Under the pieces are notes generated by a model that was not told the origin of the DNA, did no database searches, and saw nothing but the letters and a program-made list of their open reading frames with translations. Positions 1,878-54,975 of a DNA stretch of 64,000 nt are shown in pieces. Source of the stretch: an uncultured Pelagibacteraceae bacterium (GTDB lineage Bacteria > Pseudomonadota > Alphaproteobacteria > Pelagibacterales > Pelagibacteraceae); the NCBI GenBank assembly GCA_902565935.1, contig CACFGT010000001.1, forward strand, positions 1 to 64,000, in the 5' to 3' direction. The translations under genes and the position numbers were made by a program. The number at the start of each line of letters is the position of its first letter. The stretch's first letter is position 1.

Positions 1878-3146
1878 ATGAGCACTAATAATAAAAACAT
1901 TTTGTACTGTTCTTTTTGTGGAAAAAGCCAACACGAGGTAAGAAAGTTAATTGCTGGTCCAACAGTATTTATCTGTGATGAATGCGTTGAACTATGTATG
2001 GACATTATTAAAGAAGAAAGTAAGGATACTTTTGTTAAACATCAAGATGGTCTTCCTTCTCCAAAAGAAATTTGCTCTGTTTTAGACGATTATGTAATAG
2101 GACAGCCTCATGCAAAGAAAGTTTTGTCTGTTGCAGTTCACAACCATTATAAGAGATTAAATTACGAAAATAAAACAAGTAAAAATGTTGAACTTGCAAA
2201 ATCAAATATTCTTTTAGTAGGTCCAACGGGCTGTGGAAAAACTTTATTAGCTCAAACATTAGCAAGAATACTTGATGTTCCATTCACTATGGCAGATGCA
2301 ACTACTTTAACGGAAGCTGGATATGTTGGTGAGGATGTTGAAAATATAATTTTAAAACTGTTACAAGCTGCGGACTACAATGTGGAAAAAGCTCAAAGGG
2401 GAATAGTTTATATCGATGAAGTTGATAAGATTAGCAGAAAATCTGAGAACCCATCAATCACTAGGGATGTATCAGGAGAAGGAGTGCAACAAGCATTATT
2501 AAAAATTATGGAAGGTACTGTTGCAAGTGTCCCTCCCCAAGGTGGAAGAAAACACCCTCAACAAGAATTTTTACAAGTAGATACAACTAATATCTTATTT
2601 ATATGTGGTGGTGCTTTTGCAGGACTGGATAAGATTATTTCACAAAGAGACAAAGGTACATCAATTGGTTTCGGAGCTAATGTTAAAAATACTCAGATAA
2701 AAAAAACTGGGGAATGGATGAAAGGTCTAGAACCTGAAGATTTACTAAGATACGGTTTGATACCAGAATTCATTGGAAGACTTCCAATGATTGCTACTCT
2801 AGACGATCTTGATGAAAAATCTTTAATCAAGATTTTACAAGAACCAAAAAATTCATTGGTTAAGCAATATCAAGAATTATTCAAACTAGATGGTGCAAAA
2901 CTAACATTTAAAGAAGGTGCTTTGAAAGAAATTGCTATCAAAGCGATTAATAAAAAAACTGGCGCAAGAGGTTTGAGGTCAATTTTGGAAAATATTTTGC
3001 TTAAAACAATGTATGATTTACCAAGCCAAGAGAATATAGAAGAAGTAATAATAGATTCAGGTACGGTAAAAGGAGATAATCAACCAATATTAGTTCATTC
3101 AAAAAATGCTAATAAATCTAAATCTAGCAAAACAACAGCGGCTTAA
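1878..3146 (+). CDS. clpX: ATP-dependent Clp protease ATP-binding subunit ClpX
   Basis: AAA+ unfoldase that recognises, unfolds and threads substrates into ClpP. The N-terminal zinc domain has four cysteines (C11, C14, C33, C36). The AAA+ module shows Walker A GPTGCGKT (115-122), pore loop GYVGED near 149-153, Walker B VYIDEVD (D180, E181) and the sensor-2 motif GARGLRS. The ClpP-docking IGF loop is intact (IGFG, 263-266). At 422 residues it is full length. Only the last 15 or so residues ([10 protein letters not shown]) are low-complexity. Gene order clpP-clpX-lon supports a shared proteostasis role. Confidence 0.98.
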
Positions 3147-3207
3147 TAACCATAATAAGTAACAAAAAGGTATTGCATTATAGATTATAATATCCATATT
3201 TATAATT

Positions 3208-5586
3208 ATGGACGTAAAAATTTCATCACCATTATTACCCTTAAGAGACATAGTTGTCTTCCCGAGTATGGTTATACCTTTATTTGTAGGAAGAGATAAA
3301 TCTATTTCTGCTTTAAATGAGGTCATGAAAAATGATAAAAAAATCATTTTAGTTACCCAAAAAAATTCTGAAATTGATGATCCAAAAAAAACAGATATTT
3401 TCATGTATGGATGTGAAGGTAATATACTTCAATTATTAAAATTACCGGACGGGACTGTTAAAGTTTTAGTTGAAGGTGTTAAAAGAGTAAAAATTCTAGA
3501 TTTTAAAGATAATGATAAGTTTATAGTCTGTGAATACTCAGCGTTAAATGATATAGTTAACGAAGATGAGGATTTATACCCTTTAGCAGCTACTGCAGTA
3601 AGGAGATTAGAAAAATTAACATCTATAAACAAAAAAATTTCAAGCGAAACAATTAACAACATTAAGAAATTAAAAGATCCTTCTCAAATTGCTGATAATA
3701 TTGCTTCTCATATATCGGCAACAATTTCTGAGAAACAACAAATATTTGAAAATGTAGATGTTAAAAAAAGATTAAACTCCATAATTAAGATAATGGAAAA
3801 TGAGACCAGTATAATTGGAGTTGAAAAGAGAATAAGAGGAAGAGTTAAAACTCAGATGGAAAAAACTCAAAGAGAATACTATTTAAATGAACAACTTAAA
3901 GCTATTCAGAAAGAATTAGGTGAAATCGAGGATGGCAAAGATGAAAGTACAAGCTTAAACAAAGCAATTCTTAAAGCTAAGATGCCTAAAGAAGTAGAAA
4001 AAAAATGCTTACAAGAGCTTAAAAAATTAAAAAATATGAGCCCAATGTCTGCTGAAGCAACTGTTGTGAGAAATTATTTAGATTGGATGACAGAACTACC
4101 TTGGTATAAAAAAAGTGAGGTCGATATAGATCTTAAGAAAGCTTTGGAAATATTAGATAAAGATCATTTTGGATTAGAAAAAGTTAAAGAAAGAATAATT
4201 GAATTTTTAGCTGTTCAAAAAAGAATGGAAAAAATTAAAGGTCCTATTTTGTGTTTAGTTGGTCCTCCTGGTGTAGGAAAAACATCTTTAGGTAAATCAA
4301 TTGCTAAAGCTACAAATAGAGAATTTGTGAGAATGTCAGTTGGTGGCATGAGAGATGAAGCAGAAATAAGAGGTCATAGAAGAACATATATTGGTTCTTT
4401 ACCAGGAAAAATTATACAAATGATGAAAAAAGCTGGTACAAAAAATCCTCTAATTTTATTAGATGAAATAGACAAAATTGGAAATGATTATAGAGGCGAT
4501 CCATCGTCTGCTTTATTAGAAGCCTTGGATCCAGAGCAAAATACATCTTTTAATGATCATTACTTAGAAGTGGATTATGATTTATCAGATGTGATGTTTG
4601 TTACAACGGCAAATACGCTTAATATTCTTCCACCGTTACTAGACAGAATGGAGGTTATCAGATTAGCTGGATACACAGAAGATGAAAAAATTAATATTGC
4701 AAATAAATATTTATTACCAAAACAGATAAAAGATAATGGTGTTAAAGAAAAAGAAATGAGTTTAGAAAATAATATAATACAAGAAATAATAAGAAGTTAC
4801 ACAAAAGAGTCAGGTGTGAGAAATCTGGAAAGAGAAATTTCAAAAGTTGCAAGAAAAGTTGTTAAAAAAGTTGTCTCCGGAGAAGAAAAAGAAGTTAAAG
4901 TCAATAAAGAAAACTTATCTGATTTTTTAGGAGTGCCAAAATTTAAATCTGGAGAGTTAGAATCTGAGAATAGGGTGGGTATTGTTACAGGTTTAGCATG
5001 GACAGAGTATGGTGGAGAAATTTTAAAAATTGAAACAGCAACCATGCCAGGCAAAGGAAGAATGCAGATAACTGGTAAACTTGGTGATGTAATGCAAGAG
5101 TCTGTTAAAGCAGCAAAATCCTTTGTTAGATCAAAATGTTTGGAGTATGGAATTATTCCACCATTATTTGAAAAAAAAGATTTTCATATCCATGTTCCTG
5201 AGGGAGCAACTCCTAAAGATGGACCTTCTGCGGGTATAGGTATGGTAACATCAATAGTCTCTTCGATCACTAATATTCCAGTTAAAAGAGATGTTGCAAT
5301 GACGGGCGAAGTTACTCTTACAGGTCAAGTATTACCAATTGGGGGTTTAAAAGAGAAATTGATTGCTGCTCATAGGGCTGGCATTAAGGAAGTTTTAATT
5401 CCCAAAGAAAATGAGAAAGATTTAGTCGACATGCCAAAAAAAATTATAGATGAAGTTAAAATTACTCCAGTAGAATTTGCTGATGAAGCACTTAAGATTG
5501 CACTAACAAAAGAGTTGAAAAAAACTGAATGGGTTGAGGTTGATATATCTAAAAAAGATGACAAATCTCAAGCTAGTATTCAATAG
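3208..5586 (+). CDS. lon: Lon ATP-dependent protease
   Basis: Cytoplasmic AAA+ serine protease that degrades misfolded and regulatory proteins. The order is the N-terminal LON substrate domain (about 1-200), a coiled linker (QREYYLNEQLKAIQKELGE), the AAA+ domain with Walker A GPPGVGKT and Walker B LILLDEIDKI, and the C-terminal protease domain with the Ser-Lys dyad at S674 (KDGPSAG) and K717 (GGLKEK). Length 792 is normal. The ATG at 3208 begins the conserved LPLRDIVVFPSMV region after a 61-base AT-rich gap that includes TATAAT at 3186-3191 but no convincing -35 box. Confidence 0.98.
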   Translation: MDVKISSPLLPLRDIVVFPSMVIPLFVGRDKSISALNEVMKNDKKIILVTQKNSEIDDPKKTDIFMYGCEGNILQLLKLPDGTVKVLVEGVKRVKILDFKDNDKFIVCEYSALNDIVNEDEDLYPLAATAVRRLEKLTSINKKISSETINNIKKLKDPSQIADNIASHISATISEKQQIFENVDVKKRLNSIIKIMENETSIIGVEKRIRGRVKTQMEKTQREYYLNEQLKAIQKELGEIEDGKDESTSLNKAILKAKMPKEVEKKCLQELKKLKNMSPMSAEATVVRNYLDWMTELPWYKKSEVDIDLKKALEILDKDHFGLEKVKERIIEFLAVQKRMEKIKGPILCLVGPPGVGKTSLGKSIAKATNREFVRMSVGGMRDEAEIRGHRRTYIGSLPGKIIQMMKKAGTKNPLILLDEIDKIGNDYRGDPSSALLEALDPEQNTSFNDHYLEVDYDLSDVMFVTTANTLNILPPLLDRMEVIRLAGYTEDEKINIANKYLLPKQIKDNGVKEKEMSLENNIIQEIIRSYTKESGVRNLEREISKVARKVVKKVVSGEEKEVKVNKENLSDFLGVPKFKSGELESENRVGIVTGLAWTEYGGEILKIETATMPGKGRMQITGKLGDVMQESVKAAKSFVRSKCLEYGIIPPLFEKKDFHIHVPEGATPKDGPSAGIGMVTSIVSSITNIPVKRDVAMTGEVTLTGQVLPIGGLKEKLIAAHRAGIKEVLIPKENEKDLVDMPKKIIDEVKITPVEFADEALKIALTKELKKTEWVEVDISKKDDKSQASIQ

Positions 5587-5598
5587 TAAAATTAAATC

Positions 5599-5718
5599 AT
5601 GGAATTTTTCTTATTTTTATTAATTGTGGTATTTATTGTTTTTTATTTGACGAGACCTACATCAAAACAGGAAGAAGAAAATTTTAACTCCAAAAATAAT
5701 TGGAGAGGTGGATTTTAA
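5599..5718 (+). CDS. Small membrane protein, 39 residues, function unknown
   Basis: A short open frame starting 12 bases after lon. It begins with one hydrophobic helix (MEFFLFLLIVVFIVFYL, residues 1-17), then a hydrophilic tail with an acidic cluster (KQEEEN) and a C-terminal NNWRGGF. The pattern of one N-terminal membrane anchor followed by a soluble tail ending in aromatic and Gly residues looks like coding sequence rather than chance, but I recognise no family. Coupling to lon suggests cotranscription. It occupies the place where many alphaproteobacteria carry hupB before the tRNA-Val/tRNA-Asp pair. Whether it is translated is unproven. Confidence 0.5.
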   Translation: MEFFLFLLIVVFIVFYLTRPTSKQEEENFNSKNNWRGGF

Positions 5719-6072: not shown

Positions 6073-6441
6073 ATGACTGCGGAATTTTTAAAAGATTATT
6101 TGCCTATAATTTTATTCCTGATAATTGCTTTGGGATTAAGTTGTGCATTTATAGTAATTAATTTTATCCTATCTCCTAAAAATCCAGACCCTGAGAAATT
6201 ATCAGCTTATGAATGTGGGTTTGAACCATTTCAAGACTCTAGAATGGAATTTGACGTAAGGTTTTATTTAGTTGCTATACTTTTTATTATTTTTGATCTT
6301 GAAATTGCTTTTTTATTTCCGTGGGCAATTTCTCTGGGAAATATTGGAATTTTAGGTTTTACCTCAATGATGATTTTTTTATTCATACTTACTGTTGGTT
6401 TTGTTTATGAATGGAAAAAAGGTGCATTAGACTGGGAATAA
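6073..6441 (+). CDS. nuoA: NADH-quinone oxidoreductase subunit A
   Basis: Small membrane subunit of respiratory complex I, at the junction of the membrane and peripheral arms. The 122 residues carry three hydrophobic segments (about 10-32, 64-84, 93-113). Between the first two lies the conserved loop [22 protein letters not shown], with the invariant Cys and the acidic/aromatic motif. It opens the nuoA-N operon and is preceded by 107 bases after tRNA-Asp containing TATAAA at 6048-6053 but no convincing -35. The short dyad GTGA-CCTA-TCAC at 6023-6034 also lies in this leader. Confidence 0.97.
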
Positions 6442-6967: not shown

Positions 6968-7573
6968 ATGAATAATTTAATTGATTTAGAAAAAAAAATA
7001 AATTCAGAGCTTGCTACAAAGATAAATAAGTCTTTGGTAAAACATAATCAAATTTATGTTGAAATTGATAAAGAGGACTTAATTGATGTTGTTTTGTTTA
7101 TTAAAACAAATAAAGAAATTAAATTTAGACAACTTATAGATATTACAGTTGTTGATTACCCAGAAGAAACTCAAAGATTTAAAATTGTATATTTATTTTT
7201 AAGTCATGAGTTCAATCAAAGAATGATTTTAAGCTATTTCATTAACGAAAATGAAGTTATCTCTTCTTTAACGCCAGTTTTTCCATCAGCCAATTGGATG
7301 GAGAGAGAAGTTTTTGACATGTATGGAGTTAATTTTAAAGATCATCCTGATTTAAGAAGAATACTTACTGATTATGGTTTTGAGGGTCATCCATTAAGAA
7401 AGGATTTTCCTTTAACAGGTCATACAGAGGTAAGATACAGCGAGGAACAAAAAAAAGTAATTAATGAACCAGTTAAATTAGAGCAAAATTATAGAAATTT
7501 TGATTATGAAAGTCCTTGGGAAGGTACAAAATATATTAAAGAAATAAAAGAGACTAATGACAAAAAAAATTAA
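6968..7573 (+). CDS. nuoC: NADH-quinone oxidoreductase subunit C
   Basis: Peripheral-arm 30 kDa-type subunit that packs against NuoD. The C-terminal signature is clear ([24 protein letters not shown], then [17 protein letters not shown]). Here it is a separate 201-residue protein, as in other alphaproteobacteria, and not fused to NuoD as in E. coli. Its last 17 bases overlap the start of nuoD, suggesting translational coupling. Confidence 0.97.
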
Positions 7574-8733
7574 AAATTTAAATTTAAATTTTGGTCCACA
7601 ACACCCTGCTGCTCATGGTGTGTTGAGATTAATACTTGAACTTGATGGAGAGGTTGTTGAAAAAGCTGATCCACATATTGGTTTATTGCACAGAGGAACT
7701 GAAAAATTAATTGAAAATAAAACATATATGCAAGCAGTGCCATATTTTGATCGTTTAGACTATGTAGCTCCGATGAATCAAGAGCATGCTTTTGCTTTAG
7801 CGGTTGAAAAAATTTTAGAAATTGATGTCCCAATAAGAGCTCAATACATAAGAGTCATGTTTTGTGAAATTGGTAGAATATTAAGCCATATTTTAAATGT
7901 AACAACACAAGCATTGGATGTTGGAGCTTTAACACCTTCGTTGTGGGGATTTGAAGAAAGAGAAACATTGATGACATTTTATGAGCGTGCATCTGGATCA
8001 CGATTACATGCAAATTATTTCAGAGCGGGGGGGAGTTCATCAGGATTTACCTGCAGGTTTAGAAAATGATATAGCTAAATTTTGTGAGAGTTTTCCAAAA
8101 ATAATAAACGATCTTGAAAATCTTTTAACTGACAATAGAATATTTAAACAAAGAAATGTAGACATTGGTATTGTTTCTAAAGAAGATGCGCTTGATTACT
8201 CATTTAGCGGTGTAATGATCAGAGGATCCGGTATCCCATGGGATTTAAGAAAATCACAACCTTATGACTGTTATGATCAAATGGATTTTAAAATTCCAGT
8301 TGGTAAAAATGGTGACTGTTATGATCGTTATTTGTGTAGAATTGAGGAAATGAAAGAAAGCGTTTCAATTATCAAACAATGCTTAGCAAAAATGGAAAAA
8401 GGCCCCATTAAAACTTTTGATGGAAAAATATCTCCACCTTCAAAAAAAGATATAAAACAGTCAATGGAAGCTTTGATACATCATTTTAAATTATTTACTG
8501 AGGGATACCGTGTGCCTAAGGATGAAATTTATACTGCTGTTGAGGCACCGAAAGGAGAATTCGGAGTATATTTAATTTCAGATGGTTCAAGCAAACCTTA
8601 TAAGTGTAAAATTAGAGCTCCAGGATTTTCTCATTTACAATCAATGGATTATTTAATTAAAGGTCATATGCTTGCAGATGTTCCAGCTGTCCTTGGTTCT
8701 TTAGACATAGTTTTTGGAGAGGTAGACAGATGA
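7557..8733 (+). CDS. nuoD: NADH-quinone oxidoreductase subunit D, interrupted by a +1 frameshift
   Basis: 49 kDa-type subunit forming the quinone-binding pocket with NuoB. Two frames are needed. The first (from 7557, [23 protein letters not shown]) runs normally to [19 protein letters not shown] and then turns to nonsense, stopping at 8069. The downstream frame resumes at once with [17 protein letters not shown] and runs to the normal C-terminus (VFGEVDR) at 8733. The switch falls in a run of seven Gs at 8027-8033. Six Gs would give a continuous 391-residue protein with the standard [11 protein letters not shown] signature. Everything else is well conserved, so a sequencing or assembly indel is the simplest reading; a true mutation or slippage site is possible. 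The ATG at 7981 is not a real start. Confidence 0.9.
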
Positions 8734-32808: not shown

Positions 32809-33446
32809 TTAATAAAGAATTACAAAAAAGAATATTAAGTTCAATTATTTTAATACCAATAGCAATTTTTTTTATTATTGAAGGATCAATATTTTTTATA
32901 TTTTTTTTAAGTATACTTCTTTTAGCTACAAGCTATGAATGGGTAAAGATGTGTAAAACAAAATACTTGATAATTTTTTTTGGAATTGTGTTTTTATTTA
33001 TTTCATTTTTTTTAGCTTATCATATTAGAGAAAATATAGGTCTAATCTTTTTTCTTTTTATAATATTAATTTGTATTTTTACTGACTTAGGGGGTTATGT
33101 ATTTGGAAAAATTTTTAAGGGTCCTAAGCTTACAAAAATTAGCCCAAATAAAACTTATTCTGGAGTAATCGGTGGTTTTTTACTTTCATTAGCTGCGGGT
33201 TTATTTTTTTTAAAATATACGAATACTAATTTTTTACAAAATGATTCTACTAAAATTTTACTTGGTATATTATTTATTTCATTAATAAGTCAAATTGGAG
33301 ACTTAATAATTTCTTATTTTAAAAGATTAGCTAAAATTAAAGATACAGGAAAAATTTTACCTGGTCATGGTGGTTTATTAGACAGAATAGATGGAATAAT
33401 TTTTGCAATACCTGTCTCTTTTTTATTATTTAATTATTTAAGTTAA
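32805..33446 (+). CDS. cdsA: Phosphatidate cytidylyltransferase
   Basis: Makes CDP-diacylglycerol for phospholipid synthesis in the inner membrane. It is short (213 residues, against about 270-285 in E. coli) with roughly five or six helices. The family signature is complete: SYFKRLAKIKDTGKILPGHG followed by GLLDRIDG. SPNKTYSGVIGG is also conserved. The missing length is at the N-terminal membrane region, suggesting a compact enzyme rather than a broken one. Confidence 0.93.
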   Translation: MINKELQKRILSSIILIPIAIFFIIEGSIFFIFFLSILLLATSYEWVKMCKTKYLIIFFGIVFLFISFFLAYHIRENIGLIFFLFIILICIFTDLGGYVFGKIFKGPKLTKISPNKTYSGVIGGFLLSLAAGLFFLKYTNTNFLQNDSTKILLGILFISLISQIGDLIISYFKRLAKIKDTGKILPGHGGLLDRIDGIIFAIPVSFLLFNYLS

Positions 33447-34615
33447 TGAAAAAAAAAATAGCTATATTAGGTTCAACAGGATCAATTGGAAAAACTTTAA
33501 TTAATATAATTAAACAAGATAAAAAAAATTTTGAAATAGTTTTATTATCTGCTGACGAAAACTATACAGAGTTATTAAAACAAGCTAAATTTTTCAAAGT
33601 AAAAAATTTAATCATCACTAATGAAAATAGTTTTAATAAAGTAAAAAAAAAAAGATTTTCAAAAAAAATAAATATTTATAATAATTTTAATAATTTTAGA
33701 AAAATTTTTAAAAAAAAAGCTGATTATACAATGAGTTCTATTTCGGGGATACAAGGACTTAAACCTACAATTGAAATTATAAAATTTACTAAAAAGATCG
33801 CTATTGCAAATAAAGAGGCAATCATATGTGGCTGGGATCTAATTCAAAAGCAGTTGAAAAAAAATAAAACAAAATTTATTCCTGTTGATTCAGAACATTT
33901 TTCAATTTGGTCATTAGTTAAAAATCATGATTACAAATTTATAGATAGGATCTATATAACAGCATCAGGAGGACCTTTTTTAAAATGGCCATTAAATAAA
34001 ATTAAAAAAGTAACACCGGAAAAAGCAATTAAACACCCAAATTGGTCTATGGGAAAAAAAATATCAATTGATTCAGCAACAATGATGAATAAGGTTTTTG
34101 AGGTGATAGAAACCCAAAGAATTTTTAATTTAGAAAAATCTAAAGTAAAAATTTTGATACATGATAAATCTTATATACACGCTATTGTTCAATTTAAAAA
34201 TGGACTAAAAAAAATTCTAGCTCATGATACAAATATGAAGATACCAATTTTTAATACACTTTATGACAGTAAAAATGAAATAAAATTTCTCAAGACAAAA
34301 AATTTAGATATTGATAAATTGAATAATTTAAATTTAAAAAGTTTAAATGAAAAAAAATTTCCACTTATTAAAATACTCGATAAAATGTCAAATAAAGCCT
34401 CCTTACTTGAGACAGTTTTAATAAGTGCAAATGATGAATTGGTAAATCTGTTTTTAAAAAAAAAAATCAGTTATACTGAATTACAAAAAAATTTATTACG
34501 AATATTAAATTTACCTGAGTTTAGAGCTTTTAGAAAAAAAATACCAAAAAATATCAATGAAATTAATAAGTTAAATAGTTATGTGAGATTGAAAATTAAC
34601 GAGTTATGTATATAA
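33446..34615 (+). CDS. dxr: 1-deoxy-D-xylulose 5-phosphate reductoisomerase
   Basis: Second step of the MEP isoprenoid pathway, NADPH-dependent. The nucleotide motif LGSTGSIGKTLINII is at residues 7-21; IANKEAIICGW, PVDSEHFSIWSL (metal ligands) and ITASGGPFLKWP form the active site. Length 389 is typical. Overlaps cdsA by one base. Normally rseP follows, but here bamA overlaps the end. Confidence 0.96.
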   Translation: MKKKIAILGSTGSIGKTLINIIKQDKKNFEIVLLSADENYTELLKQAKFFKVKNLIITNENSFNKVKKKRFSKKINIYNNFNNFRKIFKKKADYTMSSISGIQGLKPTIEIIKFTKKIAIANKEAIICGWDLIQKQLKKNKTKFIPVDSEHFSIWSLVKNHDYKFIDRIYITASGGPFLKWPLNKIKKVTPEKAIKHPNWSMGKKISIDSATMMNKVFEVIETQRIFNLEKSKVKILIHDKSYIHAIVQFKNGLKKILAHDTNMKIPIFNTLYDSKNEIKFLKTKNLDIDKLNNLNLKSLNEKKFPLIKILDKMSNKASLLETVLISANDELVNLFLKKKISYTELQKNLLRILNLPEFRAFRKKIPKNINEINKLNSYVRLKINELCI

Positions 34616-53762: not shown

Positions 53763-54058
53763 TGCTTCAAAAATTAAAAAAAAATTATTTTTTGCTAATT
53801 ATAACTTTTTTAATTTTTTACTTTTTCTTTAATCTTTTGTCAGGTGAAAGAGGCCTTATCTCTTATTTTGAAAAAAAAGATCAGTTGAATACACTAAAGG
53901 CTGAAGAATCATTACTTAAAAATCAAATTAAAGACTTGGATTTCAAGAATTCGTTATTAAGTGACAATCTAAATCTTGATTATATTGAAACTTTAATTAG
54001 AGAAAGACTCTTATTTGGAAAAAAAAATGAAAAAATTTATATTATTAAAAATCAATGA
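53762..54058 (+). CDS. ftsB: FtsB/DivIC-type septum formation protein
   Basis: Small bitopic protein of the division complex. One membrane helix ([19 protein letters not shown], about 10-28) is followed by a coiled-coil segment (about 35-70, [21 protein letters not shown]) and the tail [22 protein letters not shown], which resembles the FtsB region after the coil. Length is 98. The position after eno matches FtsB in proteobacteria. It overlaps eno by one base and lipA by four. Confidence 0.85.
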
Positions 54059-54975
54059 AAATTAGACACCCTGAAAAACAAAAAAATCCAGTTAATCCAA
54101 TCAAAAAAAAACCTGATTGGATCAGATCTAAACTTACTAATAGTAAAGAATTTTTCTTAACCAAAACTGTAGTAAATAATAATAATCTTGTAACTGTTTG
54201 CCAGGAAGCGAATTGTCCAAACATAACTGAATGTTGGAGTAAAAGACATGCAACTTTTATGATTATGGGAGATACTTGCACAAGAGCATGCGCTTTTTGT
54301 GATGTTAAAACTGGTAAACCTGAAAAACTTGATATACTTGAACCAATTAAGATTGCTGAGGCAGTTAAAAAACTAAATTTAAAACATGTGGTAATTACCT
54401 CAGTAGATAGAGATGATTTAAATGATGGTGGTTCAAATCATTTTTATGAAGTTATTACTCAAACTAGAAAAACAAATCCAAATACCACTATTGAAGTTTT
54501 AACACCAGATTTTTTGAGAAAAGGTGAGGCTTATAAAAAAGTATTAGAGGCAAACCCTGATGTGTTCAATCATAATATTGAAACTGTGCCTAGTCTTTAT
54601 TTAAAAGTAAGACCTGGTTCGAGGTATTTTGCATCTTTAGAACTTTTAAAAAATGCAAAAAGAATAAATAAAAAAGTTTTTACCAAGTCAGGTATGATGG
54701 TTGGTTTAGGTGAAACAAGAGATGAAATATTACAAGTGATGGACGATTTAAAATCAGCTGATGTAGACTTTTTAACTATTGGTCAATACCTTCAGCCATC
54801 AGTAAAACATTTTCCTCTAGATAGATATTATACTCCACAAGAGTTTGAAGAATTTGCAAGTATTGCAAAATCTAAAGGTTTTTTATTGGTTTCATCTTCA
54901 CCTTTAACTAGATCTTCTTACCATGCTGATGAAGATTTTGCACAACTTCAACGTAATAGAATTAATAATCATTAA
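54055..54975 (+). CDS. lipA: Lipoyl synthase
   Basis: Radical SAM enzyme that inserts sulfur into octanoyl groups. The auxiliary cluster ligands are C49, C54, C60 ([12 protein letters not shown]) and the radical SAM ligands C75, C79, C82 (CTRACAFC). The C-terminal RSSYHADE holds the conserved Ser cluster ligand. Length 306 is normal. In many alphaproteobacteria pdh and lpd genes separate ftsB and lipA; here they are adjacent. Confidence 0.97.

Follow-up and report, generated by a model that had tools for sequence, protein, structure and literature searches.

The window, by which we mean the whole stretch of 64,000 nucleotides that was analysed, probably contains an ordinary, single-copy and functional nuoD, the gene for subunit D of complex I, from a SAR11-type bacterium. 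In the run at which its reading frame breaks, the seventh G is best explained as a one-base consensus error of the assembly (probability about 0.8). This extra G would have arisen in sequencing, amplification or assembly, while the DNA of the cell or cells would carry an intact nuoD. The explanation is favoured by the intact gene of the relatives, by the lack of decay, by the fact that no second copy was found and by a private one-base change in livG, and a new biological mechanism is most likely not involved. On this sequence evidence, the proposal of the earlier note that a homopolymer sequencing or assembly error lies in a functional gene appears to be the best supported. The genome is SAR11/Pelagibacter-like: the named relatives closest to the window belong to the Pelagibacteraceae, most of them being single-cell or MAG records, and the G+C content of the window is 23-32%. 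The case is a caution that a single assembled base can make a core respiratory gene appear lost, and automatic annotation would give two fragments or a pseudogene for nuoD.

Gene nuoD spans positions 7557-8733 on the plus strand, in two ORFs (7557-8069 and 7981-8733). The starting frame begins with the ATG at 7557 and encodes 170 amino acids before the stop at 8067-8069, which lies 34 bases past the run of seven Gs at 8027-8033. The switch of frame falls within this run. The frame carrying the conserved GVHQDLP segment is open from 7975 and ends at 8733, and the valine of this segment is the first codon of the 3' part of the gene (8035-8733, plus strand). Both the position of the break, exactly in the run, and the resumption with GVHQDLP in the next frame had been claimed in the earlier note and are borne out here. 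Against PRK06075, the NCBIfam model for NuoD (384 positions), the 5' part (7557-8069) covers positions 2-154 and the 3' part positions 149-384, so that NuoD models are matched in consecutive parts and the profile is covered along its length. As single open frames the two pieces stay below the curated cut-off of 360 bits (257.0 and 358.6 bits), whereas the intact NuoD of the closest relative found, genome G003, scores 624.2 bits.

A second nuoD was not found: searching the present genome with the PF00346 profile gave two matches, and both are the nuoD pieces. The genome (1,094,908 bases in 34 contigs) is 95.77% complete, so a second copy could still lie in the missing part. The nuo genes adjoining nuoD are full-length ORFs, in agreement with the earlier view that the rest of complex I is intact. 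The first 17 bases of nuoD (7557-7573) also belong to nuoC, and the ATG of nuoE overlaps the nuoD stop (8730-8733). Because of this last overlap, a real break in the nuoD frame would probably lower the translation of nuoE too.

G003 is ~95% identical at nuoD and carries six Gs at the site together with an intact NuoD of 391 amino acids, the same length that had been calculated for the window's protein with six Gs restored. Aligning nuoD to that of close relatives, which had been suggested as a check, gave nine in-frame bases between the Phe-Arg and the Val-His-Gln-Asp codons in all 80 named relatives (80 were kept out of 571 confirmed matches); among these 81 loci only the present genome has ten. 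Nine bases are also found in 109 of the 110 loci L002-L111, read on both strands, the ten-base one (L082) being the present genome again; 30 of these loci (L082-L111) are the best 30 from 148 genomes with a match and overlap in part with the 80, and the 110 loci are not independent. Of the 110 loci, 107 have the start and end motifs of the gene in a single open frame; the exceptions are the present genome and two loci whose sequence begins within the gene, where the contig ends. The longest G run at the site is seven in this genome only, six in G003 only and at most five in the 108 other loci, where relatives have mixed Ala and Gly codons. Of 399 genomes of the genus, only this one has the ten-base form, which is private to this assembly; the nine-base form occurs in 214, and the remaining genomes match neither strict pattern, for which missing sequence or other codons would each account.

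The frame past the break has kept its coding character. Compared with G003, the 5' part of nuoD shows 22 synonymous differences and one non-synonymous, and the 3' part shows 37 and one (59 and two for the whole gene), with no sign of relaxed selection past the break. If the 3' part had been untranslated over the whole branch leading to the window, we estimate from the observed sites and rates that roughly 70 non-synonymous changes would be expected in it. The pattern of differences indicates equal constraint on the two parts, both of which still evolve as protein under purifying selection. The earlier observation of no decay on either side therefore stands, and it follows that the seventh G is either very young or absent from the cell.

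A very young change would be a real slippage mutation from six to seven Gs in the sequenced cell or strain, by which NuoD would be inactivated and the translation of nuoE probably lowered, in a variant that is being lost. We consider this unlikely, although it is the most serious competitor of a consensus error. The six Gs of G003 at the same site could gain one by slippage, the absence of decay suits such a recent event, and the other long homopolymers of the window agree with G003, so that the assembly seems mostly sound. This explanation nevertheless requires that a probably costly variant was caught in the sequenced cell or strain, plus another in livG, and the ten-base form is absent from the 398 other genomes of the genus that were searched. 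The rarity of such costly variants is taken here from mutation rates known as general background.

The quality of the assembly can be judged from the comparison with G003, which shows 94-96% identity across three stretches of 20 kb and is colinear with positions 1043-61005 of the window (~60 kb). Across this region no gene other than nuoD has its frame broken by an indel without compensation. When the ORFs of G003 were compared with the window, 59 of 60 were matched and one frame break, that of nuoD, was seen; in the opposite direction 60 of 63 window ORFs were matched, again with one break, in a minus-strand ORF at 3102-3404. We took this ORF for a chance one and rejected it as a candidate, as it spans the gap before lon, with a one-base difference near 3202. 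Outside the window, contig C8 of the present genome and contig C2 of G003 gave no breaks in either direction (43 of 61 G003 ORFs and 45 of 60 ORFs of C8 matched), and contigs C2 and C3 of the present genome were uninformative, with 0 of their 121 ORFs matched in the G003 stretches compared.

The remaining frame-changing gaps relative to G003 are intergenic, at gene ends or in mutually compensating clusters. Isolated one-base losses at 6441 and 21225 are intergenic or at a gene start, and two clusters of indels, at 54,053-54,718 and 32,968-33,722, are compensated or at gene ends and break no frame; we take them to lie in lipA and in cdsA/dxr, respectively. At 32968-33722, where one gene ends and the next begins, many small gaps are seen but few in the flanks, and this short stretch may have recombined locally or be evolving fast. 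Among the 478 homopolymers of at least six bases in the aligned part of the window, two are longer than in G003, the seven Gs of nuoD and an intergenic run of seven As at 5717. The idea that the assembly is faulty at homopolymers in general was rejected, the long A/T runs of the window being in agreement with G003. That this assembly is not generally poor at homopolymers (2 of 478 longer, other seven-base runs intact, contig C8 unbroken) is the counterpoint to a consensus error in nuoD. In Illumina metagenome contigs at 10x coverage about 1% of proteins are reported to contain homopolymer errors, according to the available portion of that study (PMC3277595), and the breaks found here, one among the 59 matched ORFs of the window and none among the 43 of contig C8, are of this published order.

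The run of seven Gs is by itself only mildly unusual, 0.37 G runs of seven or more being expected in the window under a first-order model. The earlier note had called it an unusual G run in a very AT-rich genome, a description which loses force from the six Gs of G003 and from the 32 G/C runs of at least six in the genome, four of them of length seven (36 pattern hits, four being second hits inside seven-base runs). All 32 were read, and an open frame of at least 60 amino acids surrounds 31 of them. The three other seven-base runs sit in intact frames: two are coding-strand G runs, in a TRAP permease and in an ORF of 259 amino acids with no NCBIfam match, and one is a C run in chorismate synthase. 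In this genome, therefore, seven-base G/C runs do not as a rule go with misassembly or harm. More striking is the break of a frame that was found intact wherever the sequence of a relative was read.

A second break was found in a LivG-like ABC transporter ATPase, which is split over two frames at C5:23117-23901 (L126:1456-2240), beside a run of six Gs. The present genome has four Ts where G003 has five, a one-base loss, and the gene is whole in all 19 other genomes read, which are the best of those with a match; 117 of the 121 genomes, counting the present one, gave a match. The assembly thus carries no fewer than two private one-base changes in homopolymers of conserved genes, a gain in nuoD and a loss in livG. 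Two such changes of opposite sign are best accounted for by consensus errors, with very recent real mutation in second place. Taken as a sign of consensus error, further one-base changes in the same assembly are in evidence weakly, through livG. No further clear break came to light when codon usage was surveyed over 387,147 bases, counting overlaps, and this sets a lower bound. This survey gave 152 neighbour pairs, most of which were judged from their start codons to be ordinary adjacent genes. Among the pairs scanned, livG was the only case of one family split over two frames; of the five others, two consist of members of different families and in three the second member matched nothing, the first fitting most of its family profile, and a break in these three could still exist.

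It could also be supposed that the seven Gs are real and that the cell produces the protein nevertheless, through slippage at the run, whether of transcription or of the ribosome (+1), but we regard this as very improbable. A +1 slip after the second GGG codon, onto GGA, would enter the right frame; the tRNA-Gly anticodons found are TCC and GCC, with no CCC among 30 tRNA hits; and the apparent purifying selection on the 3' part would be expected if it is translated. Set against this, the run is not conserved among relatives, with their mixed Ala and Gly codons, and the 80 bases past it fold no better than shuffled sequences (z 0.46, 132 of 200 at least as stable), by a calculation that is blind to pseudoknots. 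Efficient slippage would moreover do harm at the two other coding-strand G7 runs and the C7 run in intact frames, and the livG break concerns a different base and has the opposite sign. In the accessible part of a study of tobacco chloroplasts (PMC8254509), a tract of eight As was insufficient for effective transcript slippage. Slippage and frameshifting, offered as alternatives in the earlier note, have therefore gained no support from a site that is unconserved, that has no standout structure and whose G7 counterparts lie in intact genes. Least probable of all is that a frame-broken gene persists in a free-living bacterium with a real G7 run, enough NuoD being made through +1 slippage of a tRNA-Gly able to decode GGG as well as GGA, or through transcript slippage.

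Among the tRNA genes, an Rfam tRNA match of 50.7 bits at C12:28887-28957 on the minus strand (L192:1501-1571) was not called by ARAGORN. It may be the tRNA-His that is otherwise missing from the ARAGORN list, its anticodon loop reading GTG by eye.

Were the seven Gs real and the protein made, a G run would be the site of frameshift rescue in an ocean bacterium that is free-living and streamlined. Literature on this feature of nuoD was not found among the matches listed, which is not proof of its absence from print. The nearest known parallel to such a rescue is the chloroplast atpB mutant of Oenothera, in which the frame is corrected at an oligoA run (PMC8254509, in the part available) and which likewise involves a one-base homopolymer change in an essential energy gene. 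The recoding of atpB is backed by protein data and a predicted stem-loop, whereas in nuoD the G7 run is known from DNA and no structure stands out. In sequence, operon place and length the two pieces combined are like NuoD, the NADH-quinone oxidoreductase subunit D (PRK06075, TIGR01962), from which the nuoD of the window differs in that it needs two frames in this assembly. The consensus error that we favour resembles the homopolymer frameshift errors of draft assemblies, as described in the portion of PMC3277595 at hand, in that a single-base change of length disrupts one conserved gene and is confined to one assembly; it differs from them in that the window and G003 agree in their long A/T runs, which point to no general problem.
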